From NCBI RefSeq assembly GCF_004959855.1, contig NZ_SPNT01000008.1:124001-188000 (forward strand): a stretch of DNA of 64,000 bases, written 5' to 3'. The translations under genes and the position numbers were made by a program. Below the pieces are notes generated by a model. It made no database searches. It worked only from the letters and a program-made list of their open reading frames with translations, and was not told the origin of the DNA. The DNA comes from Nitratireductor sp. XY-223. GTDB lineage: Bacteria > Pseudomonadota > Alphaproteobacteria > Rhizobiales > Rhizobiaceae. Positions within the stretch are counted from its first letter, which is position 1, and every line of letters starts with the position of its first letter. Shown one piece after another: positions 8,049 through 27,996 of the stretch.

Positions 8049-9062
8049 ATGAGGGCATTCGCCGCAAGGCATCCGTGGTGGACCGCCGTGATCGCGATCG
8101 CGGCGGCCGTGCTCCTGATGCTGATCTTCCTGGTGTGGCCGCAATGGCTGGTGGCGGGCATCGGCCGCAAGAAGGTGTTCCTCAACGCGCTGTTCAACGG
8201 GATCACGCTCGGCGGGTTGTATTTCCTCGTCGCCAGCGGCTTCACGCTGATTTTCGGCCTCATGCGCAATGTCAACCTGGCGCATGGTTCCCTCTACCTG
8301 CTTGGCGGCTATATCGGCTTTTTCGTTGCCGAATGGACCGGATTCTGGCTGCTCGCCTTTCCGGCGGCCTTTCTCGTTGTTGCACTTCTCGGTGTGGTGC
8401 TCCAGGTCGTTGTCTTCCAGCGCATGGAGGGGCAGGACCTTCGCCAGACCCTGGTGACGATTGGCATCTCTATCGTGGCGGCTGACCTGATGCTTTGGGC
8501 CTTCGGGGGCGACTTCTACAATATCGGCACACCGAGCTGGCTCTCCGGGCCCATGGAGACGTTCTTCGTGACCGGCGTCAAACGCTCTTCCGGCGACCTT
8601 ATCTTCCTGAAATACCCGCTTGTGCGCATTGTCATCTTCGCTGCATCCGTCGGCATCGGCGTCGGCATGTGGTTGCTGCTCAACCGCACGCGCATCGGCA
8701 TGCTCGTGCGGGCCGGCGTCGACGACAGTGCCATGCTTTCGGCGACCGGCGCGCGCATCAATCTGGTCTTTGTGGGCGTCTTCGCGTTCGGCGCCGGTCT
8801 CGCCGGTGTCGCGGGGGTCGTCGGCGGAACCTTCCAGTCCATCGCACCCGGTGAAGATATCCGCTTCCTGCTTGCCTCGCTCATCGTGGTGATCGTCGGC
8901 GGCATGGGGTCGATCCCCGGGGCGGCGCTCGGTGCGCTGATGATCGGCCTCGCCGAGCAGTTCGGATCCGTCTACTTCCCCACCTACGCGGTGGTGCTGA
9001 CCTTCCTGATCATGGTCGCCGTGCTGGCCTTCCGGCCGCAGGGCCTGATGGGGAGGGCCTAG
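8049..9062 (+). CDS. livH: LIV-type ABC transporter permease LivH
   Basis: Integral membrane permease of about 337 residues. NALFNGITLGGLYFLVASGFTLIFGLMRNVNLAHGSLYLLGGYIGF is the LivH signature, and GVDDSAMLSATGARIN is the cytoplasmic EAA-like coupling loop. About eight hydrophobic segments follow. A TTG at 8010 is in frame, but the ATG at 8049 gives the usual start. Four bases separate the stop from livM. The partner binding protein is probably the one at 2877. Confidence 0.9.
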   Translation: MRAFAARHPWWTAVIAIAAAVLLMLIFLVWPQWLVAGIGRKKVFLNALFNGITLGGLYFLVASGFTLIFGLMRNVNLAHGSLYLLGGYIGFFVAEWTGFWLLAFPAAFLVVALLGVVLQVVVFQRMEGQDLRQTLVTIGISIVAADLMLWAFGGDFYNIGTPSWLSGPMETFFVTGVKRSSGDLIFLKYPLVRIVIFAASVGIGVGMWLLLNRTRIGMLVRAGVDDSAMLSATGARINLVFVGVFAFGAGLAGVAGVVGGTFQSIAPGEDIRFLLASLIVVIVGGMGSIPGAALGALMIGLAEQFGSVYFPTYAVVLTFLIMVAVLAFRPQGLMGRA

Positions 9063-9065
9063 GCC

Positions 9066-10133
9066 ATGGCCGTTTTCGAGACCCGGTGGCAGCCGGCGCG
9101 CCCGGCGGGCGGATGGCGCGAATGGGTCGAGAAGATACCGATCGGCTACTGGGCCGTCGGAATAATCCTGCTGATCATGCCCGCCGGGGCCAGCGACTTC
9201 GTGCTTTTTCAGATTTTCGGCTGGACTTTCATCCTCGGGATGATCGCCCTCAGCCTGATGCTTCTCGGCGGCTATGGCGGCATGGTCAGCCTTGCGCAAA
9301 TGTCGGTGGCCGGCGTTGCGGGCTACATGGTCGCCATTTTGGGCGACAGTGCCATTACCGATATCAGCCAGGGCTGGCCCTGGTTCGTGGCGATCCCGCT
9401 GGCGCTCGTCATCGCGGTCCTGTTCGCGACCGTCACCGGCTGGCTGGCGGTGCGCACGGAAGGCATCTACACCATCATGATCACGCTCGCGATCGCGGCG
9501 GCGTTCTTCTATTTCTGCCGGCAGAACTACACGGTCTTCAACGGCTTTTCCGGCTTTAACGGCGTTCTTCCGCCGAAGCTCTTCGGTGTCGACTGGCGCG
9601 GGCCGAAGGCATTCTACTACCTGACGCTGTTCTGGGCCGCGGTATCCTATTTCGCAGTCGTCTACCTTTCCCGCGCCCCGTTCGGGCTGGCGCTCCAGGG
9701 CGTTCGCGACAACCCGCGGCGCATGGCGGCGCTCGGTTACGATGTCACCGCCCACCGCGTGGCGGCCTACGCCTTCGCGGCCATCCCGGCCGGGATCGGC
9801 GGTATCCTGCTGACCTGGCAGTCGGCGCAGATCTCTCCAGGCACTGTCGGGATCGGGCCGGCGATCGATGTCCTGGTGATTGCCGTCATCGGTGGCATGC
9901 GGCGGCCGGTCGGCGCTTTCATCGGCGCCTTCATCTATGTGCTGTTCAAGACTTTCGCGCTCGACGTGCTGGTCGCTCTCGGCCTCAGCGGCGAGCGGTT
10001 CCAGTTGCTCATCGGGCTCGGCTTCCTGCTGATCGTCTTCTTCTCGCCGGATGGATTACTGGGCCTGTGGGACCGCTGGCAGACATCGCTCAGACGCGAT
10101 CCGCTGACCGGCGGCGAACGGGGCGCGCCATGA
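9066..10133 (+). CDS. livM: LIV-type ABC transporter permease LivM
   Basis: Membrane permease of 355 residues. GMIALSLMLLGGYGGMVSLAQMSVAGVAGYM is the LivM signature, RTEGIYTIMITLAIAAAFF follows, and GVRDNPRRMAALGYDVTAHR is the coupling loop. It overlaps livG by 4 bp (ATGA). It forms the heterodimeric inner-membrane channel with LivH. Confidence 0.9.
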   Translation: MAVFETRWQPARPAGGWREWVEKIPIGYWAVGIILLIMPAGASDFVLFQIFGWTFILGMIALSLMLLGGYGGMVSLAQMSVAGVAGYMVAILGDSAITDISQGWPWFVAIPLALVIAVLFATVTGWLAVRTEGIYTIMITLAIAAAFFYFCRQNYTVFNGFSGFNGVLPPKLFGVDWRGPKAFYYLTLFWAAVSYFAVVYLSRAPFGLALQGVRDNPRRMAALGYDVTAHRVAAYAFAAIPAGIGGILLTWQSAQISPGTVGIGPAIDVLVIAVIGGMRRPVGAFIGAFIYVLFKTFALDVLVALGLSGERFQLLIGLGFLLIVFFSPDGLLGLWDRWQTSLRRDPLTGGERGAP

Positions 10134-10913
10134 GCGACGTCGCATCCGTCAGCACGCGGCTCGCCGCCACAGGAACCGCGAACGCGCTGGAATTGCGTGG
10201 CGTCTCCAAGATGTTCGGGGCGCTGGCGGCCCTGAGCGACGTGGCGATCACCGTGCACCCCGGCGAGCGGCGGGCGGTGCTCGGCTCCAACGGCGCCGGC
10301 AAGACGACGCTGTTCAACTGCATCACCGGCGACTTCCCGCCCACATCCGGCTCGATACGCTTTTTCGGTGAGGATATCACCGCGTTTCCGCCGCATGAGC
10401 GGATCCGGCGCGGTCTCAGGCGCACCTACCAGATATCGCTGCTTTTCACCGGCTTGTCCGTTCTCGACAATGTCTACCTTGCCTGCCGGGGCGTTTCGCG
10501 CGGCCGGTTCTCCTTTATCCGCCCGCGCCGCAGCGACGCGCTCATGGCAAGCGCGGAGAACTTGGTGGAGATCGTGCATCTCCACGATGTTCGCGATTCG
10601 ACCGTCTCGGAACTCTCCTACGGGCAGCAGCGGCAGCTCGAGATCGCCATGGCGCTGGCCGGTGCGCCGCGGTTCATCCTGTTCGACGAACCGGCCGCCG
10701 GACTGTCGCCGACGGAGCGCCGGGAACTGGTCGATATCCTGACCGGGCTGCCGTCGCACATGGGCTACATCATCATCGAGCACGACATGGACGTGGCGCT
10801 GCGCGTCGCGGAATCGGTGACGATGATGCACAACGGCCGAATCTTCAAGGAAGGAAAACCGGCGGAAATCGAGGACGATCCGGAAGTGCAGGCGCTGTAT
10901 CTGGGAGTTAACG

Positions 10914-10921
<8 letters not shown>
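10130..10921 (+). CDS. livG: LIV-type ABC transporter ATP-binding protein LivG
   Basis: Cytoplasmic ATPase of 263 residues. Walker A is GSNGAGKTT, the ABC signature is [16 protein letters not shown] (LSYG instead of LSGG, common in LivG), and Walker B is [13 protein letters not shown]. It starts within the livM stop and overlaps livF by 8 bp, so all four transporter genes are translationally coupled. Confidence 0.9.
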
Positions 10922-13076
<2,155 letters not shown>

Positions 13077-13079
13077 AGC

Positions 13080-13910
13080 ATGTTCGAGCGCAAGGAACTG
13101 ATGAAGAAATATCGCGGCATGATCGCTAGCGGCGAACCGATCATCGGCGGCGGCGCCGGCACCGGCCTCAGCGCCAAGTGCGAGGAGGCTGGCGGCATCG
13201 ACCTCATCGTCATCTACAACTCCGGCCGCTACCGGATGGCCGGGCGCGGCAGCCTCGCCGGGCTGATGCCCTATGGCGACGCCAACGGCGTGGTGATGGA
13301 TATGGCGGGCGAGGTCCTGCCGGTGGTCCGGAACACGCCGGTGCTGGCCGGGGTGTGCGCTTCCGACCCGTTCCGCCTGATGGACAGGTTCCTCGATCAG
13401 GTCAAGGCGGCCGGTTTCTCGGGTGTCCAGAATTTTCCGACGGTCGGCCTCATCGACGGGAATTTTCGCGCCAATCTGGAAGAAACCGGTATGTCCTACG
13501 GCCTCGAGGTCGAAATGATCCGTCTGGCGGCCGAGCGGGACATGCTGACGACCCCTTACGTGTTCTCGGCCAAGGATGCCGCAGCGATGGCGCAGGCGGG
13601 TGCGGACATTATCGTGTGCCATCTCGGCCTGACCACCGGCGGCTCCATCGGCGCCGAGACCGCCATGACGCTCGAGCAGTGCCCGGCCGTTGTCGATGAA
13701 TGGGCGGCGGCGGCGCTGGCGGTCAACGCCTCGGCGATCATTCTCGTCCACGGCGGACCGGTGGCGCAGCCCGAGGATGCGGAATTCGTTCTTCGCCACA
13801 CCAAGAACTGCCACGGCTTTTACGGCGCTTCGTCCATGGAACGTCTTCCGACGGAAGTCGCGCTTACGGAACAGACCAGGAAATTCAAGCAGATCGGCCG
13901 CCAAGGCTGA
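13080..13910 (+). CDS. Phosphoenolpyruvate-hydrolase-family TIM-barrel protein (COG5564)
   Basis: Protein of 276 residues. [40 protein letters not shown] is the typical start, and [16 protein letters not shown] and [15 protein letters not shown] are further hallmarks. The family is predicted to be a TIM-barrel enzyme acting on phosphoenolpyruvate-like or related acids; the name is by homology only. Three bases separate it from the UPF0261 fusion gene, so the two probably act together. No signal peptide, so cytoplasmic. Confidence 0.8.
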
Positions 13911-13922: not shown

Positions 13923-16900
13923 ATGACCGGACAACTGATCGGACAACTGATCCTTTGGCTGATACTGGCCGTCATTGTCATTTTCATTCTCTATTGGGTG
14001 ATGAACTGGCTCTATCGCCGGTCCACCAAGGAAGTGGCGTTCGTCAGGACCGGCTTCCTCGGCGAGAAGGTGGTGATCGACGGCGGCGCATTCGTCTGGC
14101 CGATCATCCACGACATCACGCCCGTCAACATGAACTCGCTTCAGCTGGCCGTGGTCCGGGAGAAGGACGACGCGCTCAACACCAAGGACCGCATGCGTGT
14201 CGATGTCGACGCCGAATTCTATGTGCGGGTCAAGCAGGACCGGCAATCGGTGAGCCTTGCGGCATCGACACTCGGCAAGCGCACCCTAGAGCCGGAACGC
14301 ATCCACGCCCTGCTGGCCGGCAAGTTCATTTCCGCCTTGCGCACCGTTGCCTCCGAGATGACCATGGAGGAGTTGCACGAAAGCCGGCACGACTACGTGG
14401 CGCGGGTCCTGAGCCTGGCGCAGGAAGGCCTCGACAAGAACGGCCTCGAGCTTGAAAGCGTCGCCATCACCGATATCGACCAGACGGATATCGAGTATTT
14501 CAACCCGTCGAACCGGTTCGACGCGGAGGGCCTGACGCTCGTCATCGAGGCCATCGAGGGCCGGCGCAAGATCCGCAACGACATCGAGCAGGAGACGATG
14601 ACCAAGATCCGCGCTCGCAATCTCGAGGCGGAAAAGCAGTCGCTCGAAATCGAGAAGCAGAGCGAGGAAGCGCGCCTGGTGCAGGAGCGCGAGATCGAGT
14701 TCCGGCGGGCGCAGCAGCGTGCCGACTTAGCGCGCGAGCGCTCCGAACGCGAGAAGGAAGCCGAGCAGGCCACGTTCCTGTCGCGCGAAGCCATAGAAAC
14801 CGCGCGCATCGCCAATGAGCACCAGATCGCGGAAGCCCGGATCGCTTCCGAAAAGGACATCCGTCAGAAGGAAATCGAGCGGCAGAAAATCGTCGACGAG
14901 GCGGAAATCCTGTCGCGGGAGGCTGTCGAGAAGGCCCGCATCAACCAGGAGAAGGTGCTGACCGAGGAACGGATCCGCACCCAGCAGGAAACCGAATCGG
15001 CCGACATTACCGCGAAGGAGGCGATCGAGAGGGCAAGGATCGAGCAGGAGAAGTCGGTGACCGAGGCCCGGATCGCCAAGGACCAGGAAACGCAATCGAA
15101 GGAGATCGAACGGCAGCGGACGGTCGACGAGGCCGACATTGCCGCGAAGGAGATTGTCGAAAAGGCACGCATCGCTCAGGAGCGCAGTGTCACGGAAGCC
15201 CGGATCGCCCTCGAGCAGAGCACCCGTGAAAAGGAGATCGCCCGCAACCTGTCGGTCGAGCAGGCGGAGATCGCGTCCCGCGAAGCGGCGGAAAAACTGC
15301 GCATCGCGCAGGAAAAGACCGTCAATGCCGAGCGCATCACGTCCGATCGCGATACCCGCACGCTCGAAATCGAGCGCCAGAAGGTCCTTGAAGAGGCGGA
15401 GATCGCCAGCCAGCAGGCGACGGAAGCCGCGCGCATAGCCCGGGAAAAGACCCTGTCGGCCGAGCGTATCGCCGCCGAGCAGGATACGCGTTCCCTGGAA
15501 ATCACCCGCCAGCGCGAGCTCGACGCGCAGCAGATCGAAGCTGCCGAGGCGACGTCCAAGTCGCGTATCGAGCAGGAAGAGCGTGTCCGCTCGCTCGAGA
15601 TCGCCCGCAACCGCAATATCGACGAGAGCGAAATCGCGTCCAAGAAAGCGGTCGAGACAGCCCGCATCGAGAGCGAGGAAACAACCAGGCAGCGTGACGT
15701 TGCGCGCGAGCAGGCCGTTGAATCGGCCGCGATTGCCATGACAGAGGCCGTCGAGGCGGCGCGTATCGCCAAGGACAAGAAGGTCGCGGCCGAACGCATC
15801 GCCTTCGAGCAGGACCTGCGCGAGCGGGAGATTGCGCGCAACAGGGCTGTCGACGTCGCCAATGTCGAGGCGCAGAAGACGGTCAACGAGGCCCGCATCG
15901 ACGAAGAGAAGAAGACGAGGGCCGCGGAGATCGCCAAGGAAGGCGAGATCCGGGCCCGGGAGATCGAGAAGAACGAGGCGGTCGAGGCCGCCGAGATCTC
16001 TTCCCGCCGGCTTGTCGAACAGCAGCGCATCGAAAAAGACGCGGAAACCACGGCCGACAAGATCAGCCGCGACGAGAAGATCCGCAATCTCGAAATCGAG
16101 CGCAACAAGGCCCTGGATTCGGCGCAGATCGCCGCCGATCAGGCCATCGAGGCGGCCCGCGTCTCAAAGGAGAAGACGGTGGACGCCGAGCGCATCCTCG
16201 CAGAGCAGGAGCTCGATGCCCGCAAGCTCGAGCGCAAGAAGGTGCTGGAACAGCTCGAAATCGCGCGCGTGCAGGCGCTGCGCGAGGCCGAAATCGCCAG
16301 CCAGGAGGAGGTCGAGCGCGCCCAGATCGCGTCCGAGCGCGGTCTCGACGAGGCGCGCATCGGCCACCAGACGGAGCGGCGGCGGCTGGAGATCGACCGG
16401 GAGAAATCGGTCGAGGAAGCGTCGATGGAGAAAGCCATCGCGCTCTACCAGAAGTCGCTGGACGAAAGCGCCGCTGCCGTCGAGGCGGAGCTCGCCAAGG
16501 CTCGTGCCGCGGAAGCCGCCGAGAAGGTCAAGACAGCCCGCGAGACCGAGGAAGCAAGCCGGCGCAAGTCCGTCGATGTGGTGATCGCCGAAAAGGACGC
16601 CGAGGAAAAGCGGATCGCGGCGGAGGCCGAGCGGATCCGGGCGGCTGTCGAGGCGGAAGCCCAGAAGCTCATCAACGAGGCGGAGAACGTGCTCACCGAC
16701 GGTGCACGCCACTCGCTGTTCAAGCGCAAGATGCTGGAACATGTCGAGGGCATCGTATCGGCCTCGGTCAAGCCGCTCGAGAAGATCAAGGACATCCGCA
16801 TCATGCAACTGGGCGGCGGCGCCAACGGCCTTGGCTGGGCCAATGGCGACGGCGTGGAGGGCGCGCTCGGCAGCGGCTCGGGCGGAAGCCCGACCGACGA

Positions 16901-17102: not shown

Positions 17103-17540
17103 ATGGCGCGCGCCTATGTTTCGTCCGTCATAAACGCGCCGGCGTCCAATGTGTGGGAACGGGTGCGCGATTTCAACGGACTGCCCAAGTGGCATCCGCG
17201 CATACGCGACAGCCGCATCGAGGAGGCGATGCCGTCGGACAAGGTGGGCTGCATCCGCAACTTCAACCTGCAGAACGGCGACAATATCCGCGAGCAGCTC
17301 CTTGGCCTGAGCGACTACGACATGTTCTGCACCTACGCGATCCTCGACAGCCCGATGCCGCTTTCTGACTACATCGCGACCCTGCGCTTGACACCGGTGA
17401 CCGACGGCGACCGCTGCTTCATCGAGTGGTCCGCCGAATTCGAGTGCAGCCCGGATAACGAGGCCGATCTGGTCTCAGGAATCAGCACCAATGTGTTCCA
17501 GGGCGGCTTCGACGCCCTCAGGCGGCACTTCGGTGGCTGA
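17103..17540 (+). CDS. SRPBCC (CoxG/polyketide-cyclase-like) protein 1
   Basis: Protein of 145 residues with a START/SRPBCC fold pattern: INAPASNVWERVRDFNGLPKWHP, DKVGCIRNFNLQNGDNIREQLLGLSDYD, TYAILDSPMPLSDYIATLRLTPV and FIEWSAEF. CoxG proteins of CO dehydrogenase clusters belong to this superfamily and link the molybdoenzyme to the membrane. It starts immediately after the flotillin stop and resembles the second copy at 18054, with which it shares the RDFNG and YxxLDxPxPLxxY patterns. Probably cytoplasmic. Confidence 0.78.
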   Translation: MARAYVSSVINAPASNVWERVRDFNGLPKWHPRIRDSRIEEAMPSDKVGCIRNFNLQNGDNIREQLLGLSDYDMFCTYAILDSPMPLSDYIATLRLTPVTDGDRCFIEWSAEFECSPDNEADLVSGISTNVFQGGFDALRRHFGG

Positions 17541-17572
17541 TGAACCCGAAAGGGAAACAAAGGGAGGAGAAA

Positions 17573-19300: not shown

Positions 19301-19782
19301 TGGAAAAGACGGCTTTGAATTTCACGCTGAACGGCGCCGAGACGGGCGTGTTCGTCGACGCGGGGGCGAACCTGCTCGACGTGCTGCGGCGCGGCGTCGG
19401 CGACCAGACGCCGAAATATGGCTGCGGGCAGGGAAGCTGCGGGGCTTGCTCCGTGCTGATCGACGGCGAACTGCACCTATCGTGCCTGACACTCGCCGAA
19501 ACCGTTGCGGGCAAAAGCGTCGAGACCACGGCGGGACTGGCCGGCGGGCCCGAACTGCACGCACTGCAAAAGGCGTTCATCGACGGATTTGCCGCGCAGT
19601 GCGGCTATTGCACACCGGGCATGCTGATGGCCGCCAGGGCGCTGCTCGACAGCAATCCGAATCCGAGCCGCGACGACGTTGCGGAGGCCATCTCCGGCAA
19701 TATCTGCCGCTGCACCGGGTATGAGCCGATCATCGACGCCATTCTTGCGGCAGCCTCCGGTTCCGGGCGGAGGTTCGGCTGA
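19300..19782 (+). CDS. Molybdenum hydroxylase [2Fe-2S] (small) subunit, CoxS/XdhC type
   Basis: Protein of 160 residues with both family clusters: the plant-ferredoxin-type ligands C42, C47, C50 and C62 (GCGQGSCGACSVLIDGE) and the helical-domain ligands C101, C104, C136 and C138 (CGYCTPGM and ICRCTGYEPI). All eight Cys are present, so electron transfer should be intact. The stop overlaps the next gene's start by one base. Confidence 0.93.
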   Translation: MEKTALNFTLNGAETGVFVDAGANLLDVLRRGVGDQTPKYGCGQGSCGACSVLIDGELHLSCLTLAETVAGKSVETTAGLAGGPELHALQKAFIDGFAAQCGYCTPGMLMAARALLDSNPNPSRDDVAEAISGNICRCTGYEPIIDAILAAASGSGRRFG

Positions 19783-21611
19783 TGACGACGATCGAATTCC
19801 GCAAGGATCTCTTCGCCGACGAGCGCGTGGACGATCTGAAGCAGATCGGCAAGCCGACGGTGCGGCAGGACATTCTCGGCCATGTGACGGGGCGCTCGCC
19901 TTACTATGACGACCATCTGTTCGACGGGCTCCTGCACATGCGCTGCGTGCGCTCGCCGCACCACCACGCGCGCATCCGCTCGATCGACACAAGCGCCGCC
20001 GAACGCATGCCGGGCGTGCGGCGCATCGTCATGCCGTCGGACGTGCCGCACAACATCAATACGCTGCTTTCGCTGATCAATTTCGGGCGGGACGACGAGC
20101 CGCTCCTGTCGCATACGAAGGTCAGTTACCGAGGCGAGCCGGTCTGCGCGGTGATCGCCGACACCGAACGGCAGGCGCGCGCGGCTATCGCCGCGGTGCG
20201 GGTCGACTGGGAGGTGCTGCCGCATGTGCTCGATGTCGAGGAGGCGCTGGAGCCGGATGCGCCGGTCGTCAACGAGGAATACCCGAACAACACCTTCGAC
20301 TATCACGAACGCTACGATCACCAGAAGCTGCGGTTCGGCGATATCGGGGCCGGATTTGCGCAAGCCGACCGGGTCATCGAGGGACGCTATCAGATGTCGC
20401 CGATCGAGCAGGCGCCGCTTGAGACCTGCGGCGCCATCGCAGCACCCGAAACCAATGATCGTTTCGTCTGCTACACGTCGACCCAGGCCTTGTTCTTCTC
20501 GCTCGGCACGACGGCGAAACTGCTCGACATCGCCTCGTCGCGGCTGCATTTCGTCGGCGGTACCGTCGGCGGCGGCTTCGGCGGCAAGGTGGACAGCATC
20601 GTCGAGCCGATGGCAACGCTGGGGGCGGTTCTGACCGGCCGTCCCGTCAAGTTCATGTGGGACAGGCCCGAGGAGATGCAGGTGGGCGCGCCGCGCGGCG
20701 GCGAGCGCTGGTATATCAAAGACGGGGTCATGAATGATGGGCGGATCGTCGCCCGCTCGTTCACGGGATTCTTCGACTGCGGCGCCTATACAAGGCTGTC
20801 GTCCTACGCCATCATCAAGGCGACGGGCCATCTGCCGGGGCCGTATACGATCCCCAACGTCGCCTCAAACGTCTACTGCGTCTACACCAACAGGACGCCG
20901 GCGACGGCGATGCGCGGTTTCGGCATCACCGGCGTCGATTTCGCCATCGAAAGCCACATGGACAAGGTCGCCGAAGCGGTCGGGATGGATCCGGTCGAGC
21001 TGCGCATCCTCAATGCCTATCGCGACGGCGACATGAAGGCGCATCGCAGGCTGGCCAAGAACACGGCGCTGATCGAGTGCTGCCAGGTGGCCGCTGACAA
21101 GGCCGGATGGCGGATCGGACCGCAATTCGCCGCGGCCTCGAGCCTTTCCGACGGCGGCGGCGACAGGGCGCTGATCGGCGAGACCGTCACCGACCAGGAG
21201 GGCAGGATCGGCGAGCGGCGCCAGCGCCGAATTCCCTTTGCGCCGAGCGAGCGGGGCACGGGCCGCATCGCGGCCGGAACGGCCGGCGAGGCGGTCTCCG
21301 CCGCGCGGCCGCAACGGGACGACATGCAGCCCGAACCGGAACGCATCGGACACAAGGTGAGCGCGGCGGACCCGGAACGGCCGGCACAGCCGGCCGCTCC
21401 GCCGGCTCCGGCGGCACCGCCGCCCCAGGCGCCGCAACCGGCGCAAGCCACACCGCCGCCGGTGTACGAGCCGCAGGCGCCCGCGGAACCGCCCGCACCG
21501 CAAAGCCCGCCGCCGGCGCAGCCCGAACCCTATCGCCCGAGCGAACCCTTCCAGCGCGGCGTCAAGCGGCCCGGCGCGTCGCGCTTCATTTCCGGAACAC
21601 GGAGGCGCTAG
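19782..21611 (+). CDS. Molybdenum hydroxylase large subunit, N-terminal half with Pro-rich tail
   Basis: N-terminal part (609 residues) of a xanthine-dehydrogenase-type molybdopterin subunit. The ab hammerhead lies at about 25-160. Cofactor motifs are TVGGGFGGKVDS (GGGFGGK at 263-269) and AMRGFGI (376-382). That last motif is the XDH form; the Cys-containing AYRCSFR loop of form I CO dehydrogenase is absent. Homology ends near residue 445. A 160-residue tail follows, Pro/Ala-rich at 530-595 and basic at the end. The stop is a TAG in the same frame as the next gene, which supplies the missing C-terminal half. Confidence 0.88.
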   Translation: MTTIEFRKDLFADERVDDLKQIGKPTVRQDILGHVTGRSPYYDDHLFDGLLHMRCVRSPHHHARIRSIDTSAAERMPGVRRIVMPSDVPHNINTLLSLINFGRDDEPLLSHTKVSYRGEPVCAVIADTERQARAAIAAVRVDWEVLPHVLDVEEALEPDAPVVNEEYPNNTFDYHERYDHQKLRFGDIGAGFAQADRVIEGRYQMSPIEQAPLETCGAIAAPETNDRFVCYTSTQALFFSLGTTAKLLDIASSRLHFVGGTVGGGFGGKVDSIVEPMATLGAVLTGRPVKFMWDRPEEMQVGAPRGGERWYIKDGVMNDGRIVARSFTGFFDCGAYTRLSSYAIIKATGHLPGPYTIPNVASNVYCVYTNRTPATAMRGFGITGVDFAIESHMDKVAEAVGMDPVELRILNAYRDGDMKAHRRLAKNTALIECCQVAADKAGWRIGPQFAAASSLSDGGGDRALIGETVTDQEGRIGERRQRRIPFAPSERGTGRIAAGTAGEAVSAARPQRDDMQPEPERIGHKVSAADPERPAQPAAPPAPAAPPPQAPQPAQATPPPVYEPQAPAEPPAPQSPPPAQPEPYRPSEPFQRGVKRPGASRFISGTRRR

Positions 21612-21614: not shown

Positions 21615-22637
21615 ATGGCAGTTCATCACGGCCGCGGCTTTGCCTGCATTAACTATCCCATCGGCATGAATCTCGGCGGCGACCCCTCGCAGGCGCTGGT
21701 TCATTCGACCCCGGACGGCAAATTCATGGTGACGCTGTCCTCCATCGATCTCGGACAGGGCATGAAATCCGTCACCCGCCAGATCGCCTCGGAGACGCTG
21801 GGTGTGCCGGTGGAGGATGTCTATGTGGACACCGCCGACAGCGATACCGGACCGCACTGCATGGGGTCCTTCGCCTCGCGCGGCACGCACCGTGTCGGCA
21901 ATGCCGTCATCCGCGCCGCCACCGAGGCCCGCCAGCAATTGCTGGAAGCCGCGGCGGAGGAATTGGAGGTCAGCGCCGCGGACCTCGACACCGACGGCGC
22001 CGGAAATATTCATGTGAAAGGTGCCCCCGGACGGTCCATCACCGTCGCCGACACGGCGATCGCCGCCCAGTTCAAGCAGGGGCGCACGCTTTCCGGGCGC
22101 GGCATCTTCCTCATTCCGCCGTCAGAGGCGGATCCCGACACCGGCGAGATGACGCCGGTCTCCTGCTTTGCCCATGCGGCGCTGGTCGTTGACCTGGAGG
22201 TTGACGACGAGACGGGTGTCGTGGAGGTCAAGGAAATCAACTCCGCCTACGAGGTCGGCCGGGCGCTCAATCCGAAGCTTGTCGAACAGCAGCTCATCGG
22301 CGGCGCGTGGATGGGCGTTTCCCACGCGCTCTACGAGACGACCGAACCCTATTATCCGGACCGCGAACACGGGCCGCAGGATTTCAACCACTATCTGATG
22401 CCGGGACCGGCCGAGGTCGTGACCCACAACATCGCCGTGCTGGAACGGCCTGCCGAGGACGCGCCCTACGGCGGCAAGGGGCCCGGCGAAATGTGCGCCA
22501 ATCCCGTTCTGCCGGCGATTGCCAACGCCGTCTACAACGCTGTTGGCGTGCGCTGCGACACGCTGCCGATCACGCCGGAAAAGATCCTGCGCGGCCTGCG
22601 CGAGAACGGCGGCGCCAAGCCGCAAGGGCGGAGGTAG
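21615..22637 (+). CDS. Molybdenum hydroxylase large subunit, C-terminal half
   Basis: 340 residues matching the second molybdopterin domain of the XDH family: GFACINYPIGMNLGGDPSQALVH, SSIDLGQGM, DTADSDTGPHCMGSFASRGTHRVGNA, and GGKGPGEMCANPVLPAIANAV with the catalytic Glu at 292. It has its own ribosome-binding site (GGAGG at 21601-21605, 9 nt before the ATG) inside the end of the upstream coding region. It is in the same frame as that gene, only one TAG and one ACC codon away. The two halves should assemble into one active site. Confidence 0.87.
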   Translation: MAVHHGRGFACINYPIGMNLGGDPSQALVHSTPDGKFMVTLSSIDLGQGMKSVTRQIASETLGVPVEDVYVDTADSDTGPHCMGSFASRGTHRVGNAVIRAATEARQQLLEAAAEELEVSAADLDTDGAGNIHVKGAPGRSITVADTAIAAQFKQGRTLSGRGIFLIPPSEADPDTGEMTPVSCFAHAALVVDLEVDDETGVVEVKEINSAYEVGRALNPKLVEQQLIGGAWMGVSHALYETTEPYYPDREHGPQDFNHYLMPGPAEVVTHNIAVLERPAEDAPYGGKGPGEMCANPVLPAIANAVYNAVGVRCDTLPITPEKILRGLRENGGAKPQGRR

Positions 22638-22640: not shown

Positions 22641-23522
22641 ATGCCCGTGCGGCCGAACATTGAGGGCATCGATTCACCGGACATCCTGCGCCGGGCGCTG
22701 ATCGACGCCCAATACCTGGCCGATTCGGAACTCGCGACCGCCATCTATCTCGCGCTGGCGCTCGGCAAGCCGCTGCTGCTCGAAGGAATGCCCGGTGTCG
22801 GCAAGACGGAAGCCGCCAAGGCGCTCGGCGGCGTGCTTGGGCGGCAGGTTGTCCGGCTGCAATGTTTCGAGGGCATCGACGCGGCCGCGGCGCTTTACGA
22901 GTGGAACTACCCGCGGCAGATGCTGGCCATCCGCCAGGCGGGAGACGACTACATCAACATCTACGAGGATTCGTTCCTGCTCGCCCGGCCGCTGCTGCTG
23001 GCGCTGCAGTCGCCGGCACAGACACTGCTTCTGATCGACGAGATCGACCGGTCGGATCACGAGTTCGAGGCCTTCCTGCTCGAGTTCCTCTCCGACTTTT
23101 CGATATCGATCCCGGAGACCGGCACCGTGCGCGCCAGCCAGCCGCCGGTGGTGGTTCTGACGTCCAACCGGACACGCGATCTGCACGAGGCGTTGCGCCG
23201 GCGCTGTGTCTACCACTGGATCGACTATCCCGACCCGGTCCAGGAGGCGGAAATCGTCATGACGCGCGCAAGCTCCGTCGTGCGGGAAACGGCGGACGCC
23301 GTGGTGGCGGCGGTCGGCCGCTTACGGGCTGAACCCTTGAATAAGCCGCCCGGCATCGCCGAGACCGTTGAATGGGCCGAGGCGGCAACGCTGTTGCAAC
23401 GCCTGGGCGCGCAATGGCCGGACGCGTTCCGCCGCGCCATCGGCGTTGCCGTCAAGGATCACGACGACCTTGTCTATGTGGCGGACCGGCTGGCGAGCGT
23501 GATACCGGGAGAGGCGGCATGA
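22641..23522 (+). CDS. MoxR-type AAA+ ATPase (CoxD-like)
   Basis: ATPase of 293 residues. Walker A GMPGVGKT at 49-56, Walker B LLLIDEID around 130-136, sensor 1 in VVLTSNRTRDL, and the arginine-finger region LRRRC. CoxD of CO dehydrogenase clusters is a MoxR ATPase that works with the VWA protein CoxE in maturing the molybdenum active site. Placed directly before the VWA gene (4-bp overlap), it most likely matures or inserts the cofactor of this hydroxylase. Confidence 0.87.
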   Translation: MPVRPNIEGIDSPDILRRALIDAQYLADSELATAIYLALALGKPLLLEGMPGVGKTEAAKALGGVLGRQVVRLQCFEGIDAAAALYEWNYPRQMLAIRQAGDDYINIYEDSFLLARPLLLALQSPAQTLLLIDEIDRSDHEFEAFLLEFLSDFSISIPETGTVRASQPPVVVLTSNRTRDLHEALRRRCVYHWIDYPDPVQEAEIVMTRASSVVRETADAVVAAVGRLRAEPLNKPPGIAETVEWAEAATLLQRLGAQWPDAFRRAIGVAVKDHDDLVYVADRLASVIPGEAA

Positions 23523-24616
23523 TGCTTCCCAAGGCCGTCCAGCCCCTGCTTGAATTCGCCGTTGTCCTGCGCCGGCACGGATTTGCCGTTTCGCCGGACC
23601 AGGACATTGCGTTTATCGAGGCGGTCGGTGTGCTCGGTCCTCGGGACATCTGGGATATCCGCCGCGCCGCGGTCGCGCTGTTCGCCATCCCAAAAGAGCG
23701 CGAGCCCGAGTTCGACGCGCTGTTCCGCGCGGTCTTTTTCGGTCAGACGATTGCCGCCGAGGCCGTATCGGAATCGGAGGAGGTGGATGCGCTTGAACCG
23801 ACCGGCGAGACGGTGGAGGTGGAGCGCGGCGACGAGCAGTCCGAAGTCGGTCTCGAGGCGACGGCGGCCGAACGGCTCGGCGAACGCCGGCTCTCGCATG
23901 CCGGTGACGAGGCGGCACTCGCCGCCTTTGCCAATGCGGCAAGGGACGGCCTGCCCACACGCCGGTCCTACCGGCGTACGCCGGCGGCCAAGGGCGATGC
24001 GCTCGATTTGCGCCGCACGCTCCGCCGTGCCGTGCGGCAGGACGGCGAGATCTTCCGGCTGAGCGTCAGCCGCCGCAAGCGCAGGCAGCGCAAGGTCCTG
24101 CTTCTCGTTGATGTGTCGGGCTCGATGAAAGACCGCACCGATGACCTGATGCGGTTCGCCCATGCGCTTGCGCACGCCGCCGGCCGTTTCGAGGCCTATA
24201 CGCTCGGCACGCGGCTGACCCGCATCACCAGGGCGCTGGCGACGTCCGACAGGTCAGAGGCGTTGCGGAAGGTGGAGCAGGCCGTCGCCGACATCGACGG
24301 CGGCACGCGGATCGGCGATGCACTGCAGGCATTCCTCGCCGTTCCGCGCTATGCCGGCTTTGCCCGCGGCGCTGTCGTGATCGTCCTTTCCGACGGGCTG
24401 GAACGCGGCAATCCGGATGCCATGGTCGATGCGACGCGACGGCTGTCGCGTATGGCCTGGCGGCTCGACTGGCTGACGCCGCTCGCAGCCGATCCGCAAT
24501 TCGAGCCGAAAACCGCGGCGCTGTCGGCGGCCCGGCCGTATCTGGATTCGCTTTCCGACGGCAGCGACCTCGGCAGCATCTGCCAGCATGTCCTCAACTT
24601 GTCGAGGGCGGCATGA
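23519..24616 (+). CDS. VWA-domain protein (CoxE-like)
   Basis: 365 residues starting at the ATGA overlap with the MoxR gene. An acidic, variable stretch spans about 85-115. The C-terminal von Willebrand A domain begins VLLLVDVSGSMKDRTDD (MIDAS DVSGS at 198-202) and includes GGTRIGDALQAF and VIVLSDGLERG. This is the CoxE architecture. With CoxD-like it forms the usual pair next to molybdenum hydroxylases. Overlaps the next gene by 4 bp. Confidence 0.86.
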   Translation: MMLPKAVQPLLEFAVVLRRHGFAVSPDQDIAFIEAVGVLGPRDIWDIRRAAVALFAIPKEREPEFDALFRAVFFGQTIAAEAVSESEEVDALEPTGETVEVERGDEQSEVGLEATAAERLGERRLSHAGDEAALAAFANAARDGLPTRRSYRRTPAAKGDALDLRRTLRRAVRQDGEIFRLSVSRRKRRQRKVLLLVDVSGSMKDRTDDLMRFAHALAHAAGRFEAYTLGTRLTRITRALATSDRSEALRKVEQAVADIDGGTRIGDALQAFLAVPRYAGFARGAVVIVLSDGLERGNPDAMVDATRRLSRMAWRLDWLTPLAADPQFEPKTAALSAARPYLDSLSDGSDLGSICQHVLNLSRAA

Positions 24617-25500
24617 TCGACGCGCACCACCATATCTGGCGGCAATCGGACCTGCCCTGGCTCCTCGGGCCGGAACAGCCGCGCATATTCGGCGGCTACG
24701 CCGCGATCAAGCGCGACTATCCGATCGACGAATATCTGGACGATGTGAAGGGGACCGGGATCACGAAGTCCGTCTATGTCCAGGCCAACTGGGCGCCCAA
24801 CTGGTTCACCGACGAGGCGGCCTGGGTGCAGTCGGTTGGCGACCGGCACGGGTGGCCGAACGCGATCGTCGGTTACGCCGATTTCACGGTCGAGGATGTT
24901 CGCCCGCAGCTCGACCGCCTGTCGCAATTCCCGTTGATGCGGGGTATCCGCCAGCAGTTCCATTGGCACGAGAACCCGCAATACCGGTTTGCATCCCGCC
25001 CCGACCTCGTTGCCGATGAGGCCGTTCAGCGCAACGTCGCGCGGCTCGCGGATTACGGATGGTGCTTCGACCTGCAGGTGTTCACCGGCCAGATGGCTGA
25101 CGCCGTGAAACTGACCCAAGCCTGCCCGGACGTGACCTTCATCCTGCAACACGCCGGCATGCTGGAGGACACCAGCCGTGGCGGCTGGGCCGCCTGGCGC
25201 AAGGGCATGAAGGGGCTCGCCGGTTGCCCGAACGTCGTCACCAAGCTTTCCGCCTTCGGAACCTTCATTCGCGAAAACGATCCCGAGTTCATCGCCCGCA
25301 TGGTGGCGGAGACCGAGAAGATCTTCGGCGCGGACCGCTGCATGTTCGGATCGAACTTTCCGATCGAGAAGATCTGGACGAACTACGACGCACTTTTCAG
25401 TGCCTTCCGCGCGGCGACCACGTCGATGCCGAAGGCCAAACAGAAGGCAATTTTCAATGACACGGCGGAACGGGTTTACCGGCTGCAAGAGGGGCAATAG
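24613..25500 (+). CDS. Amidohydrolase-2 family metal-dependent hydrolase (COG3618-like)
   Basis: TIM-barrel hydrolase or lactonase of 295 residues. MIDAHHHIW gives the first metal-binding His pair, with FILQHAGM and DRCMFGSNFPIEKIW further on. Members include sugar-acid and 2-pyrone-4,6-dicarboxylate lactonases and decarboxylases. It is coupled to coxE by an ATGA overlap. It probably hydrolyses a product of the hydroxylase; the substrate is unknown. Confidence 0.82.
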   Translation: MIDAHHHIWRQSDLPWLLGPEQPRIFGGYAAIKRDYPIDEYLDDVKGTGITKSVYVQANWAPNWFTDEAAWVQSVGDRHGWPNAIVGYADFTVEDVRPQLDRLSQFPLMRGIRQQFHWHENPQYRFASRPDLVADEAVQRNVARLADYGWCFDLQVFTGQMADAVKLTQACPDVTFILQHAGMLEDTSRGGWAAWRKGMKGLAGCPNVVTKLSAFGTFIRENDPEFIARMVAETEKIFGADRCMFGSNFPIEKIWTNYDALFSAFRAATTSMPKAKQKAIFNDTAERVYRLQEGQ

Positions 25501-25524
25501 CCCGGCGATACAAGGGAGACTGAA

Positions 25525-26373
25525 ATGGCGCTGACCATACATGTACTGGATTACGGCGATATCGAGCTGGAGACGAGTTTCCTCGTCCTCGGCCATGAAT
25601 GCGGACGCGTCAGGCGGGTGCCCGTCTACGGCTTCCTCATTCTCGGCGGGACCTACCCGGTGCTGGTGGACACCGGCTACCGCGACAACGCGATCATGGA
25701 AAGCCTCGGCATGCGCGGCCTGCAGTTCCACGACAACATGATCGAGAACCAGCTCGCCAAGCACGGCCTGAAACTCGGCGATATCCGCTACATCCTGCAT
25801 ACCCACCTGCATATCGACCATGCCGGCAAGGACGACCTGTTCCCGATGAACACGACGGTGGTGCTGAACCGCCGGGAGATGGAGTTCTCGGTTTCCGGCA
25901 TCATGTATCCGCAATATCCGAAGCCCGACATCAAGCACTTGGTGGACCGGATCTACGAGCCCGAGGCGATGCGTTTCCTCGACCTCGAGATCACCGGCGC
26001 CGAGGAGATCATTCCGGGCGTGTGGTGCGAGGCGGCGGGCGCCCACACGGAAGGGTCGATGAACGTCATGGTGGAAACCGCGGAGGGCCTGGCCTGCATC
26101 TGCGGCGACGTCATCTACGATTTCAACGACCAGATCGTGAACCACGTCTACACCAACAACTGGATGGAGCCGCGGGTCACCGGCAACCATGCCGGCTCGA
26201 AGCGGGAGGAAAAGGGCGCGATCAAGAAGCTGCTCAACAACTATACCTTCCTGCTTCCAGTCCATGACAAGGCGGCGAAGATCGAGAACCAGCAGGTGGT
26301 CGGACGTCTCGGCATGACGATACCCGGACCGATGACGGAAACGCTGCCGAGCCGGCAGTGGTTCGCCGCCTGA
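25525..26373 (+). CDS. Metallo-beta-lactamase-fold hydrolase (N-acyl homoserine lactonase family)
   Basis: Zinc hydrolase of 282 residues. The HxHxDH motif is HLHIDH at 94-99, and further metal ligands are in EAAGAHTEGSMNVMVE and CGDVIYD. The family includes AiiA/AttM quorum-quenching lactonases, but many members open other lactones. In this setting, next to amidohydrolase and gluconolactonase-type genes, a catabolic lactonase is as likely as a quorum-quenching one. GGGAGAC precedes the ATG. Confidence 0.83.
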   Translation: MALTIHVLDYGDIELETSFLVLGHECGRVRRVPVYGFLILGGTYPVLVDTGYRDNAIMESLGMRGLQFHDNMIENQLAKHGLKLGDIRYILHTHLHIDHAGKDDLFPMNTTVVLNRREMEFSVSGIMYPQYPKPDIKHLVDRIYEPEAMRFLDLEITGAEEIIPGVWCEAAGAHTEGSMNVMVETAEGLACICGDVIYDFNDQIVNHVYTNNWMEPRVTGNHAGSKREEKGAIKKLLNNYTFLLPVHDKAAKIENQQVVGRLGMTIPGPMTETLPSRQWFAA

Positions 26374-26409
26374 CGGCCAAGTCCGGCCGGCGGGCAGGGG
26401 AGGTAAGAC

Positions 26410-27996
26410 ATGTCGCATGAAGCAGTCGAACAGGGCTTTCACGAGCTGATCGACGAATACGCGCCCGTCAGGCAGCTCGGCACAGGCTTCGCCTTTACCG
26501 AGGGGCCGCTCTGGCACCCGCTGGACAAGCACCTGATCTTCTCCGACATGCCCGGCGATGTGCGCCGCAAATGGCGGCCGGGCGAGGGTGTCAGCGAATT
26601 GCAGCGCCCGTCCAACATGGGCAACGGCATGACCTATGATGCCGACCTCAACTTGCTGGTCTGCGAACATGCCACCAGCGCGGTTGCCCGCATCCGCCGG
26701 GACGGCGTGCGCGAGGTCCTTTGCTCCCATTTCGAGGGCAGGGAACTCAACTCGCCGAACGACATCTGCGTGCGCTCGGACGGGCGCATCTATTTCACCG
26801 ACCCGACCTATGGCCGCATGCCCTATTTCGGGGTCGAGCGGCCGACACAGCAGGGGTTCCAGGGCGTCTACATGCTGCCGGCGGACCATCGCCCGGGCGA
26901 CGAGCCGGTGCTGGCGTCGGACCGCTATACCTTCACCCAGCCGAACGGGCTGTGCTTTTCGCCCTGCGAGCGCTGGATGTGGGTCAACGACACGGAGCAG
27001 GCCAATATCCGCATGTTCGATGTCGCCGATGACGGGCGGCTGACCAACGGGCGCGTCTTCGCATCGGGCATCAAGGATACGCTCAAGCCCGGCGTTCCGG
27101 ACGGCATGAAGGCCGACATCAAGGGCAATGTGTGGGTGACGGCCCCCGGTGGCGTCTGGGTCTATTCCTTCGACGGGCAGCTGATCGGCAAGATCGCGGT
27201 GCCGGAGCTGGTGGCCAATATCCACTGGGGCGACGACGATTGGCAGACGCTGTTCATGTGCGCATCGACATCGCTCTACAGCGTTCGCACGAAAATTCGC
27301 GGGCGCACCGAGCCGTTCATGAACCCGAGGGCGCCGACGGCCCCGCGCGCAGCGGCCCCGACCGCCGGTGCTTCTCAGGCTGGCCCGCCGCTGCGAAAGA
27401 TCGACCCGGCGCGCACCGCGCTGATTATCCAGGATCTGCAGAATGACGTTATCATCGATGGCGGCGCATTCGCAGACAGCGGTTCGCCACAGCATGCGCG
27501 GGCGCAGAACGTTGTCGAAAACACGCGGCGGCTGGCCGAGGCCTGCCGTGCGAAGGGCATGCTTGTCATCCATGTCTGGATGGTCTGTGAGCCGGGACAT
27601 CCGAAGCTCGCGCAGCACGCGGCCCTGTTCCAGGGGCTGAAAGGCGAGAACGCGCTGGTGCGCGGCACCTGGGGCGTGGCGCCAGCCACGGGGTTGGAAC
27701 CGCAGGGCAATGATCTCGTCGTCGAGAAGATGTCGATGAGCGCCTGGGAAACGAGCAGGCTTGAAAGTTACCTGCGCCACGCCGGATGCGACACGATCAT
27801 CAACACCGGCGCCTGGACCAATATGAGCGTCGAACACACGGCGCGCACCGGGGCGGACAAGGGGTTCCGGATTATTGTTCCGGAAAATGCCTGCTCCACC
27901 ATGAATGCCGACTGGCACCGCGCGTCCATCGGATATGCGATGCAGAATGTCGCGGACATCACCCATGTCGATGCGGTGGTCGCGGCGCTAGGATAG
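26410..27996 (+). CDS. SMP-30/gluconolactonase-isochorismatase-like fusion
   Basis: Fusion of 528 residues. Residues 1-300 are an SMP-30/gluconolactonase beta-propeller (TEGPLWHP, LNSPNDICVRSDGRIYFTDPTYG, QPNGLCFSP, PDGMKADIKGNVWVT). A Pro/Ala-rich linker covers 303-327. Residues 330-528 are a cysteine-hydrolase/isochorismatase fold (ALIIQDLQNDV with D342, VVEKMSMSAW with K440). The position of the catalytic Cys is Ser (TNMSVEHT, S473), so thiol catalysis is not expected; isochorismatases proper also lack this Cys. A lactonase followed by a second hydrolytic step in one chain is the simplest reading. Last gene of the array. Confidence 0.85.
   Translation: MSHEAVEQGFHELIDEYAPVRQLGTGFAFTEGPLWHPLDKHLIFSDMPGDVRRKWRPGEGVSELQRPSNMGNGMTYDADLNLLVCEHATSAVARIRRDGVREVLCSHFEGRELNSPNDICVRSDGRIYFTDPTYGRMPYFGVERPTQQGFQGVYMLPADHRPGDEPVLASDRYTFTQPNGLCFSPCERWMWVNDTEQANIRMFDVADDGRLTNGRVFASGIKDTLKPGVPDGMKADIKGNVWVTAPGGVWVYSFDGQLIGKIAVPELVANIHWGDDDWQTLFMCASTSLYSVRTKIRGRTEPFMNPRAPTAPRAAAPTAGASQAGPPLRKIDPARTALIIQDLQNDVIIDGGAFADSGSPQHARAQNVVENTRRLAEACRAKGMLVIHVWMVCEPGHPKLAQHAALFQGLKGENALVRGTWGVAPATGLEPQGNDLVVEKMSMSAWETSRLESYLRHAGCDTIINTGAWTNMSVEHTARTGADKGFRIIVPENACSTMNADWHRASIGYAMQNVADITHVDAVVAALG

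Follow-up and report, generated by a model that had tools for sequence, protein, structure and literature searches.

A conserved gene array joining a LIV-type importer, a giant flotillin and a split, tailed molybdenum hydroxylase in Nitratireductor sp. XY-223

Several described systems resemble parts of the gene array considered here, which occupies positions 8049-27996 of a 64,000-nucleotide stretch of contig NZ_SPNT01000008.1 of Nitratireductor sp. XY-223 (the window, meaning the whole stretch of DNA analysed) and encodes a LIV-type importer, a giant flotillin and a split molybdenum hydroxylase. A split molybdenum subunit is known from nicotinate dehydrogenase, an enzyme that acts on nicotinate and carries a selenium ligand; we take the solved structure PDB 3HRD to be the nicotinate dehydrogenase of Eubacterium barkeri. 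A CoxG-type membrane anchor has reportedly been proposed for an N-heterocycle dehydrogenase, and CoxG itself is said to have been recognized later as a quinone carrier to carbon monoxide (CO) dehydrogenase. The usual picture of a bacterial flotillin is that of a scaffold with numerous loose clients, and in encapsulins and microcompartments the cargo carries C-terminal targeting peptides.

The CO dehydrogenase cluster of Oligotropha carboxidovorans, coxBCMSLDEFGHIK, is described in passages of PMC4240915 as encoding CoxD, a MoxR-like AAA+ ATPase needed for sulfuration of the molybdenum, CoxE, a von Willebrand (VWA) protein that holds CoxF at the membrane, and the SRPBCC partner CoxG. In a passage of PMC11962113, CoxG-like proteins are said to anchor an oxidoreductase to the membrane. 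Human flotillins 1 and 2 form a truncated-cone membrane cage, 32 nm wide, whose wall is described as free of holes (a passage of PMC11260169), and flotillins have been described as general scaffolds (a passage of PMC11775717). For the plant gene Tm-1 a bacterial origin has been published (a passage of PMC5028733). In the open-access literature no description of the present array was found, including the combination of UPF0261, flotillin and CoxG and that of a flotillin with molybdopterin; as far as these searches show, the parts are known and the combination, together with a C-terminal tail on one hydroxylase subunit, is new.

Content and conservation of the array

Eighteen genes, all on the + strand, were counted at 8049-27996 from Pfam and NCBIfam scans and open reading frames (ORFs), with gene starts chosen by codon statistics. 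Two LIV-type permeases (8049..9062, its start by codon statistics, and 9066..10133; both PF02653) and a LivG-type ATPase (10130..10921; PF00005) are followed by a LivF-type ATPase fused to UPF0261, the N-terminal half of Tm-1 (10914..13076; PF00005, PF06792, PF23189), a COG5564 protein with a TIM barrel like that of phosphoenolpyruvate hydrolase (13080..13910; PF09370, E 8.1e-130; 2P10, E 3.7e-116), the giant flotillin (13923..17102; PF01145, PF15975), SRPBCC protein A (17103..17540; PF10604), a small, accessory SnoaL-like protein whose N terminus looks by eye like a signal peptide (17540..18043; PF12680) and SRPBCC protein B (18054..18497; PF10604). The hydroxylase is encoded as an FAD subunit (18500..19300; PF00941, PF03450), a subunit with two [2Fe-2S] clusters (FeS; 19300..19782; PF01799, PF00111), an N-terminal half of the molybdenum subunit with a C-terminal tail (Mo-N, MoCoBD_1; 19782..21611; PF01315, PF02738) and a C-terminal half with the active-site motif KGPGE (Mo-C, MoCoBD_2; 21615..22637; PF20256; 3HRD_B, E 3.4e-40). 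A MoxR/CoxD-like AAA+ ATPase (22641..23522; PF00004, PF07726; the MadB model stays below its cut-off), a CoxE-like VWA protein (23519..24616; PF05762, E 9.2e-47, scanned as 23372-24616), an amidohydrolase-2 family protein (24613..25500; PF04909), a lactonase-like protein of the metallo-beta-lactamase fold (25525..26373; PF00753) and a fusion of an SMP-30/gluconolactonase domain with an isochorismatase-type domain (26410..27996; PF08450, PF00857) complete the order. Intergenic gaps range from -8 to +36 nt with the SnoaL-like start at 17540; the alternative start at 17630 would leave a gap of 89 nt there.

A preliminary description, made from the sequence alone, had listed seventeen co-directional genes; the direction and the tight packing of the named modules agree with the family scans and the gaps, and the count is corrected to 18. 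Its CoxD/CoxE-like maturation proteins were recovered as the MoxR (PF00004, PF07726) and PF05762 matches, its LIV ATPase carrying UPF0261 beside a COG5564 partner as PF06792, PF23189 and PF09370, and its three lactonase/hydrolase proteins as PF04909, PF00753 and PF08450 with PF00857. The two CoxG-like proteins that it named proved otherwise: SRPBCC-A matches PF10604 (Polyketide_cyc2/SRPBCC) and PF03364, SRPBCC-B PF10604 only, and neither matches the COXG model, presumably PF06240, at E<=0.001. The third small protein of the array is the SnoaL-like one.

The Mo-C half alone was used to scan 84,980 species genomes, which hold at least 549 stretches encoding a relative. The best 80 were kept; these are the most similar, and the shares that follow therefore describe close kin, counting only loci with enough flank to judge. 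The N-terminal part of the flotillin adjoins the hydroxylase in 66 of 67 loci, the sole miss (L045) having a gap of 1262 N. SRPBCC-A was found in 67/68, SRPBCC-B in 67/69, FAD in 70/71, FeS in 71/72, Mo-N in 73/73, MoxR in 75/75, CoxE in 74/74 and the amidohydrolase in 73/73; the metallo-beta-lactamase-fold protein follows with 63/67, SMP-30 with 61/64 and isochorismatase with 61/63, and the SnoaL-like gene is present in 9 of the best 80 loci. The exact order from COG5564 to isochorismatase is kept in 51 of 59 loci; the exceptions are L045 (gap), L054 and L065 (no SMP-30/isochorismatase seen), L072, L086 and L114 (no metallo-beta-lactamase-fold match), L108 (no COG5564 match) and L098, where the order is intact and an extra 2Fe-2S gene follows it. 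Since the loci were selected by Mo-C alone and yet carry the flotillin in 66 of 67 cases, this conservation is not due to chance, and the array is one conserved unit. The hosts, as named in the records, are mostly Rhodobacterales and Hyphomicrobiales, with a few Granulosicoccaceae and Arenicellales; the array is thus spread over the Alphaproteobacteria and a few Gammaproteobacteria. Relatives of Mo-C are uncommon in even draws, in which at most 5 candidates per genome were scored: of 385 genomes of the class, 8 had a match at E<=1e-60, among them two tailless forms (G442, G534), and a search with the Mo-C of Nonomuraea reached E<=1e-70 in 16 of 398 genomes of the phylum.

The hydroxylase holds the domain set of the xanthine-oxidase family (FAD, 2x2Fe-2S, MoCoBD_1 and MoCoBD_2), and the best solved match of both molybdenum halves is 3HRD. 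Residues 18-442 of Mo-N align with 4-416 of the 425 residues of 3HRD_A, and the break point is the same, residue 5 of Mo-C corresponding to residue 4 of 3HRD_B. Wherever the two halves are adjacent (77 of 77 loci) the large subunit is split, mostly in other frames, so that the split is not a local stop codon; a frameshift or pseudogene origin, considered since the frames are in phase in the window, was rejected on the same count. The Mo-C half reads KGPGEM or KGVGEM in 113 of 117 copies at the GxGE motif, which holds the active-site Glu of the xanthine-oxidase family, and AMRGFG occurs in 110 of 112 Mo-N. By these matches the enzyme is of the split nicotinate-dehydrogenase type; the split reported in the preliminary description thus stands, and its novelty does not, nicotinate dehydrogenase being split alike.

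The flotillin of the array has 1059 aa, with SPFH and Flot domains (PF01145, E 3.8e-16; PF15975, E 6.6e-33). Hydrophobic residues recur every 11 positions (autocorrelation 0.51-0.58 at lags 11, 22, 33 and 44), in agreement with the giant hendecad flotillin noted earlier. From its N terminus the protein comprises a helix, the SPFH domain, a hendecad helix of about 750 residues and the Flot domain; in the AlphaFold monomer model, of low confidence, the N-terminal helix spans 4-34, followed by an SPFH-type region and a nearly continuous helix at 201-952. By arithmetic (1.5 A per residue), 750 residues in a straight helix would measure about 112 nm. Array flotillins range from 801 to 1190 aa (median 1026.5, 86 loci), and the two other flotillins of the window's genome are open frames of 549 and 577 aa. 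The FloT equivalog model, for a lipid-raft scaffold, gave 33.9 bits against a cut-off of 700.

Two modules and the tail of the joined form

Both parts of the array also occur separately. Within the order, 81 of 249 genomes proved to carry COG5564, and 40 of these places, a sample and not a census, were mapped as chosen loci of up to 20 kb. Fourteen are long forms, in which the modules are joined (L116, L117, L119, L120, L123-L126, L128-L131, L133 and L144). L132 and L134 have the importer, LivF-UPF0261, COG5564, a flotillin (744 and 733 aa) and two SRPBCC proteins with no molybdenum hydroxylase in the stretch, and L149 has the importer, UPF0261, COG5564, SRPBCC and a 528-aa flotillin, again with no hydroxylase in the stretch. 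L146 and L148 have no flotillin and a double SRPBCC protein; L136 and L150 have UPF0261, COG5564 and SRPBCC; L127 has an AraC gene, the importer, LivF-UPF0261 and COG5564, with neither flotillin nor hydroxylase in the stretch and a following gene that we take to be dienelactone-hydrolase-like. Among the remaining 18 loci, UPF0261 lies beside COG5564 in 15, and L118, L121 and L135 have COG5564 without UPF0261.

The other module is found in the short form AraC-SRPBCC-FAD-FeS-MoN-MoC-MoxR-CoxE-amidohydrolase, with no flotillin in the stretch, in other members of the window's family (L215-L219) and on a plasmid of Sinorhizobium sp. BG8 (L186), where Mo-N is broken into two frames (13631-14997). 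Nonomuraea (L185) carries FAD to amidohydrolase with no flotillin within 29 kb, G442 and G534 carry FAD to Mo-C only, and the haloarchaeon Salinigranum rubrum (L184) carries a tailless FAD to Mo-C set with SRPBCC. This last copy lies at 141031-143410 of plasmid NZ_CP026310.1, adjoined by a cyclase-family gene and a different ABC transporter, its Mo-C half showing 59% identity; a tailless split hydroxylase on a haloarchaeal plasmid is suggestive of a transfer across domains of life. In G105 and G209 the two modules occupy separate loci: a whole-genome search located the flotillin elsewhere, in importer-UPF0261-flotillin-SRPBCC loci from which COG5564 is absent in the stretch (L225 and L226). 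The same search, in which 79 of 128-278 candidates were scored in 8 of 10 genomes, found no such flotillin at E<=1e-30 in G442, G534, G229, G852 and G902, and the controls G035, G115 and G378 were positive; a flotillin match is also absent for the plasmids of L184 and L186, where absence shows nothing by itself, and the upstream stretch of L188 and L190 is short (~1.6 and 4.6 kb before Mo-N). We read the array as a joining of two older modules, both of which are also found apart. Base composition does not support horizontal transfer of the array, its GC being 0.650 and that of two other places of the same genome 0.626-0.643 (four overlapping stretches); the window's Mo-C lies near Stappiaceae, and other family members carry the short form, both of which would fit a transfer, though none is claimed here.

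In the long form Mo-N gains a tail of 71-187 residues, missed in the preliminary description, which is rich in Pro and Ala (24% and 19% of the linker) and ends in an RFxSxxGxRRR-like peptide. In the window the stretch past the 3HRD_A match (21108..21608, + strand) consists of this linker and the terminus RPGASRFISGTRRR; the last 20 residues have a net charge of +7 and include two Phe, an Ile and a Val. The 108 distinct Mo-N comprise 94 tailed (>480 aa) and 11 tailless proteins, the fragments L079, L087 and L100 being left out; L045 and L109, counted as tailed, start late, and the Mo-N of L186 and L100, in two frames, were not read whole. Each of the 94 tailed proteins terminates in R-[RK]-R, 93 of them in RRR, and 90 have G at -5; across 92 proteins the last 7 residues show a mean pairwise identity of 72%, vs 15-26% in the preceding linker. 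No counterpart of the tail was seen in 3HRD_A or in the 11 tailless rows, all of which are without a flotillin in the stretch; ten of these (L184, L185, L188-L190, L215-L219) end 4-9 residues past a conserved MSS/TS motif, the frame of L186 being broken.

The lengths of the other core proteins hardly differ between the forms. Mo-N measures 530-645 aa in 91 long-form loci vs 457-461 in 9 short ones (medians 593/458), the short set being 9 of the 11 tailless rows, without L186 (broken) and L189 (a 4.6-kb contig). The long/short medians of the others lie within 7 aa of each other: SRPBCC-A (srpA) 145/147, FAD 266/263, FeS 160/160, Mo-C 340/337, MoxR 293/293, CoxE 367/374 and amidohydrolase 291/292, with 6 or 7 short copies for srpA, MoxR, CoxE and amidohydrolase and some ranges that include truncated copies. 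Among the core proteins compared, only Mo-N gains a new part in the joined form. An RRR or RKR terminus occurs in only 3 genes other than Mo-N among 2471 gene calls of the fetched loci, some of which overlap; within these loci the terminal peptide behaves as expected of a cargo tag, being conserved apart from the linker and confined to Mo-N. From residue 503 the tail is mostly below pLDDT 50 in the AlphaFold model, i.e. unstructured there. On a quick tree of Mo-C, 95 tailed rows form one side of a single branch (support 97). Ten tailed loci have no visible N-terminal flotillin part, nine with a contig start within 4.5 kb upstream of Mo-N and L045 with its gap; L077, L085 and L092 still show the C-terminal part.

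Two further features were observed in four loci with the flotillin module (L132, L134, L225 and L226). SRPBCC-B continues there into a domain of the zinc alcohol dehydrogenase (ADH) type, by Pfam for L132 and by length and sequence for the others, and in 4/4 the amidohydrolase whose gene precedes the permeases has the C terminus RRRL[TI]A, which lies 13 residues past the end of the family model in L132 and L134. From this terminus, the amidohydrolase is perhaps another tagged client.

Importer, hydrolases and neighbouring genes

The borders of the preliminary description missed a Peripla_BP_6 protein at 2877..4136 (+; PF13458, E 1.1e-51), which from its family and neighbourhood is probably the binding protein of the LIV-type importer. 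All 10 long-form loci for which this region was fetched (L156-L162, L164, L169 and L170) have a homologue upstream, at 54-81% identity, and a homologue lies between permM and livG in L132, L134, L146, L148, L149, L225 and L226. Given these positions the importer is most likely complete, its binding protein standing at another place in the long form; binding protein, two permeases and two ATPases, all the parts of a LIV/HAAT importer, are present. LivF bears both UPF0261 domains (Pfam E 4.6e-57 and 1.4e-92), and the best solved match of this part is Tm-1 (3WRY, E 2.2e-100), so that a Tm-1-like pair (PF06792+PF23189 and PF09370) is encoded by adjacent genes. A bacterial reaction of UPF0261/COG5564 was not found stated in the open-access literature; the array offers a context, import and molybdenum oxidation, for these proteins, the source of the plant virus-resistance gene Tm-1.

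Between the binding protein and the permeases, all on the + strand, lie an Fe-ADH family dehydrogenase (4218..5339; PF25137/PF00465), for which tblastn gave a homologue in 8 of those 10 upstream stretches and blastp a ninth, in L169, at 26%; an accessory aldehyde dehydrogenase (5345..6784; PF00171), with a homologue above 70% in 2 of the 10 and at >=67% identity only in L116/L156, L117/L157, L128 and L187; and an AraC-family regulator (6934..7779; PF12833), a homologue of which precedes the permeases in 14 of 14 long-form loci and the SRPBCC gene in 5 of 5 short-form loci (L215-L219). Further upstream, conservation was not shown for a GntR/FCD-type regulator (277..978, +; PF07729/PF00392), with one weak homologue (28%, in L159, ~10 kb from the binding protein) among the 10 stretches, or for a GMC-family oxidoreductase (975..2594, +; PF00732/PF05199).

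In the isochorismatase domain (27390-27996), G[ASC]WTNMS[VI]EHT is read in 78 of 80 copies, the other two being short, and its Ser sits at what we take to be the usual place of the catalytic Cys. The amidohydrolase, which is also found in the short form and in Nonomuraea, reads FG[ST]N[FY]P in 75 of 107 copies (the remaining 32 were short or gave no such motif), its Asn presumably standing at the usual metal-site Asp. The metallo-beta-lactamase-fold protein has HxHxDH in 86 of 90. The neighbours of the tailless hydroxylases gave no consistent answer as to the substrate: in L215 they include a Peripla_BP_4 binding protein, an epimerase-type protein and a 6-phosphogluconate/3-hydroxyisobutyrate-dehydrogenase-type protein, in Nonomuraea a YCII protein and in the haloarchaeon the cyclase-family protein.

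No terminator or promoter was found in a scan of 27900-28400. Directly after the array, at 28223-31322 on the - strand, lie genes that we take from their sequence to be those of a LacI-type regulator and a TRAP-type transporter, and 34024-44730 resembles a sugar catabolic cluster, presumably rhamnose-like (kinase, mutarotase-type, ABC transporter, DeoR regulator and isomerase-type genes). Two antisense ORFs on the - strand, 5336-6883 (515 aa) and 24349-27966 (1205 aa), are shadows of + strand genes by codon statistics.

Possible working of the array and its described relatives

We tentatively read the array as a membrane-organised catabolic machine, a reading that may well be right while falling short of probable, in which the Mo-N tail would dock the split hydroxylase on a giant flotillin cage fed by the importer; the docking is what we infer from the conserved terminal peptide. 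One module consists of the LIV-type importer with LivF-Tm-1/UPF0261, usually COG5564, the flotillin and the SRPBCC protein(s), and the other of SRPBCC, the nicotinate-dehydrogenase-type hydroxylase, the MoxR/CoxE maturation pair and the amidohydrolase. The tail would serve as a flexible tether, its terminal peptide keeping the hydroxylase beside the importer at the membrane, either on the flotillin cage or inside it, and the SRPBCC proteins may act as carriers between membrane and enzyme for a hydrophobic partner (quinone or substrate). An imported small, probably ring-shaped compound would then receive its hydroxyl group beside a ring O or N, and the product would pass to the lactonase/amidase-type proteins. 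By analogy with the Cox proteins, the set fits a ring-compound hydroxylase with a membrane-linked electron path. The preliminary description had likewise supposed a membrane-organised complex on a flotillin scaffold and an opening of the product by hydrolases: that the parts belong together stands, the unit being conserved, and the complex is plausible and supported by the Mo-N tail; the hydrolase genes are there, and the opening is uncertain (Ser for Cys, Asn for Asp).

Several points weigh against this reading. With all tailed rows on one branch, the tail and the flotillin linkage appear to have been gained together once, so that many rows are not many events; the later constraint is nevertheless independent evidence, since the linker varied freely across many families while the terminal peptide did not and the flotillin was kept. 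In G105 and G209 a flotillin of the type-B kind coexists with a tailless Mo-N, which indicates that the presence of a flotillin alone does not imply a tail. The flotillin model is poor (mean pLDDT 59.6, pTM 0.25), and the correlation between the lengths of flotillin and Mo-N is weak (Spearman 0.34 at n=86, without correction for kinship), on which account the idea of the flotillin as a length ruler for the tail was dropped. The tailed locus L075 has no match for SRPBCC-B, the metallo-beta-lactamase-fold protein or SMP-30/isochorismatase, on a contig too short upstream for the flotillin; hydroxylase-less flotillin modules show no proven tagged client, as RRRL[TI]A may reflect only kinship; and the expected catalytic residues appear altered in two hydrolase domains, so that their reactions may not be the textbook ones. 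Moreover, the basic-aromatic terminal peptide could bind lipid directly.

This last possibility leads to an alternative that we regard as unlikely, though deserving of attention, in which the tail anchors Mo-N directly to anionic lipid, replacing or helping a CoxG-type anchor, and the flotillin organises the importer instead. The charge of +7 and the Phe, Ile and Val in the last 20 residues of Mo-N suit such an anchor, as do the anchoring role ascribed to CoxG-type proteins (in the passage of PMC11962113) and the occurrence of the flotillin module without the hydroxylase. However, the short form has SRPBCC yet no tail, the tail was gained on the branch that joined the flotillin, and a lipid patch alone does not predict a G-x-R-R-R terminus as strict as the one seen, with its G at -5. 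Doubtful, too, is a bolder form of the docking proposal, whereby the giant flotillin would be a membrane-seated, vault-like enzyme compartment, an outsized cage above the importer, into which the RFxSxxGxRRR-like peptide, a cargo tag on a long tether, loads the hydroxylase, the imported compound being oxidised in a closed space. We further consider it improbable that the array is an ordinary co-regulated catabolic operon, in which the flotillin would order the membrane against a lipophilic or membrane-active substrate without touching the hydroxylase and the tail would serve oligomer assembly, MoxR/CoxE maturation or stability. Such an operon is consistent with the presence of MoxR/CoxE in both forms and with the view of flotillins as general scaffolds (PMC11775717), but MoxR and CoxE accompany tailless Mo-N at nearly unchanged lengths, so that maturation should not need the tail, and the flotillin is present in all 67 loci with room except behind the L045 gap.

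A form of aerobic CO dehydrogenase, as the names CoxG, CoxD and CoxE might suggest, is very improbable. The CoxE-like and MoxR/CoxD-like genes, the FAD-FeS-Mo subunit order and the second-best solved match of Mo-N, the CoxL chain 8UEM, speak for it; against it, both molybdenum halves match nicotinate dehydrogenase best among solved chains, the CO dehydrogenase model TIGR02416 falls below the xanthine-dehydrogenase/4-hydroxybenzoyl-CoA-reductase models (174 vs 276 bits for Mo-N, 109 vs 194 for Mo-C, compared by rank, since a single half would not be expected to attain a cut-off set for the full length), and the active-site loop reads PATAMRGFG and not AYXCSFR, the CoxL form I motif. On subunit kinship and this motif it was rejected. 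Random adjacency or rearrangement in one genome, against which the preliminary description had named a neighbourhood check, has next to no probability, since almost every locus with enough flank keeps the array, although one subunit alone served for the selection (flotillin in 66/67, exact order in 51/59).

The array ties one flotillin, by gene order and across many families, to one enzyme with a candidate docking peptide; if the docking proposal is true, this would be a clean, genetically simple client-and-tag pair for the study of how flotillin cages recruit proteins. Compared with described systems, it shares with plant Tm-1 the UPF0261 part and the TIM barrel, which form one chain in Tm-1 and neighbouring genes here, and differs in the fusion of UPF0261 to an ABC ATPase; no antiviral role is implied. 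With nicotinate dehydrogenase (3HRD) it shares the split molybdenum subunit and the break point, whereas 3HRD is without a Pro-rich tail and the array adds MoxR/CoxE, SRPBCC, flotillin and importer; nicotinate use is not implied. Like the cluster of Oligotropha carboxidovorans, it has MoxR-like, VWA and SRPBCC partners, but no CoxF-type gene, COXG match or CoxL-type molybdenum subunit was seen in it, and the N-heterocycle dehydrogenase with a proposed CoxG-type anchor is set beside it by description only. Its flotillin resembles human flotillins 1 and 2 in the N-terminal membrane-type helix, SPFH domain, coiled coil and C-terminal Flot domain, while being far longer, with its ~750-residue hendecad helix, and linked to one enzyme; its cage form is putative. 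Finally, an enzyme that bears a conserved terminal peptide on a flexible linker, and whose gene adjoins that of a cage-type protein, recalls encapsulins and microcompartments, the difference being that no such shell protein is among the Pfam matches of the array and that the cage would be a membrane-bound flotillin to which the enzyme putatively docks.

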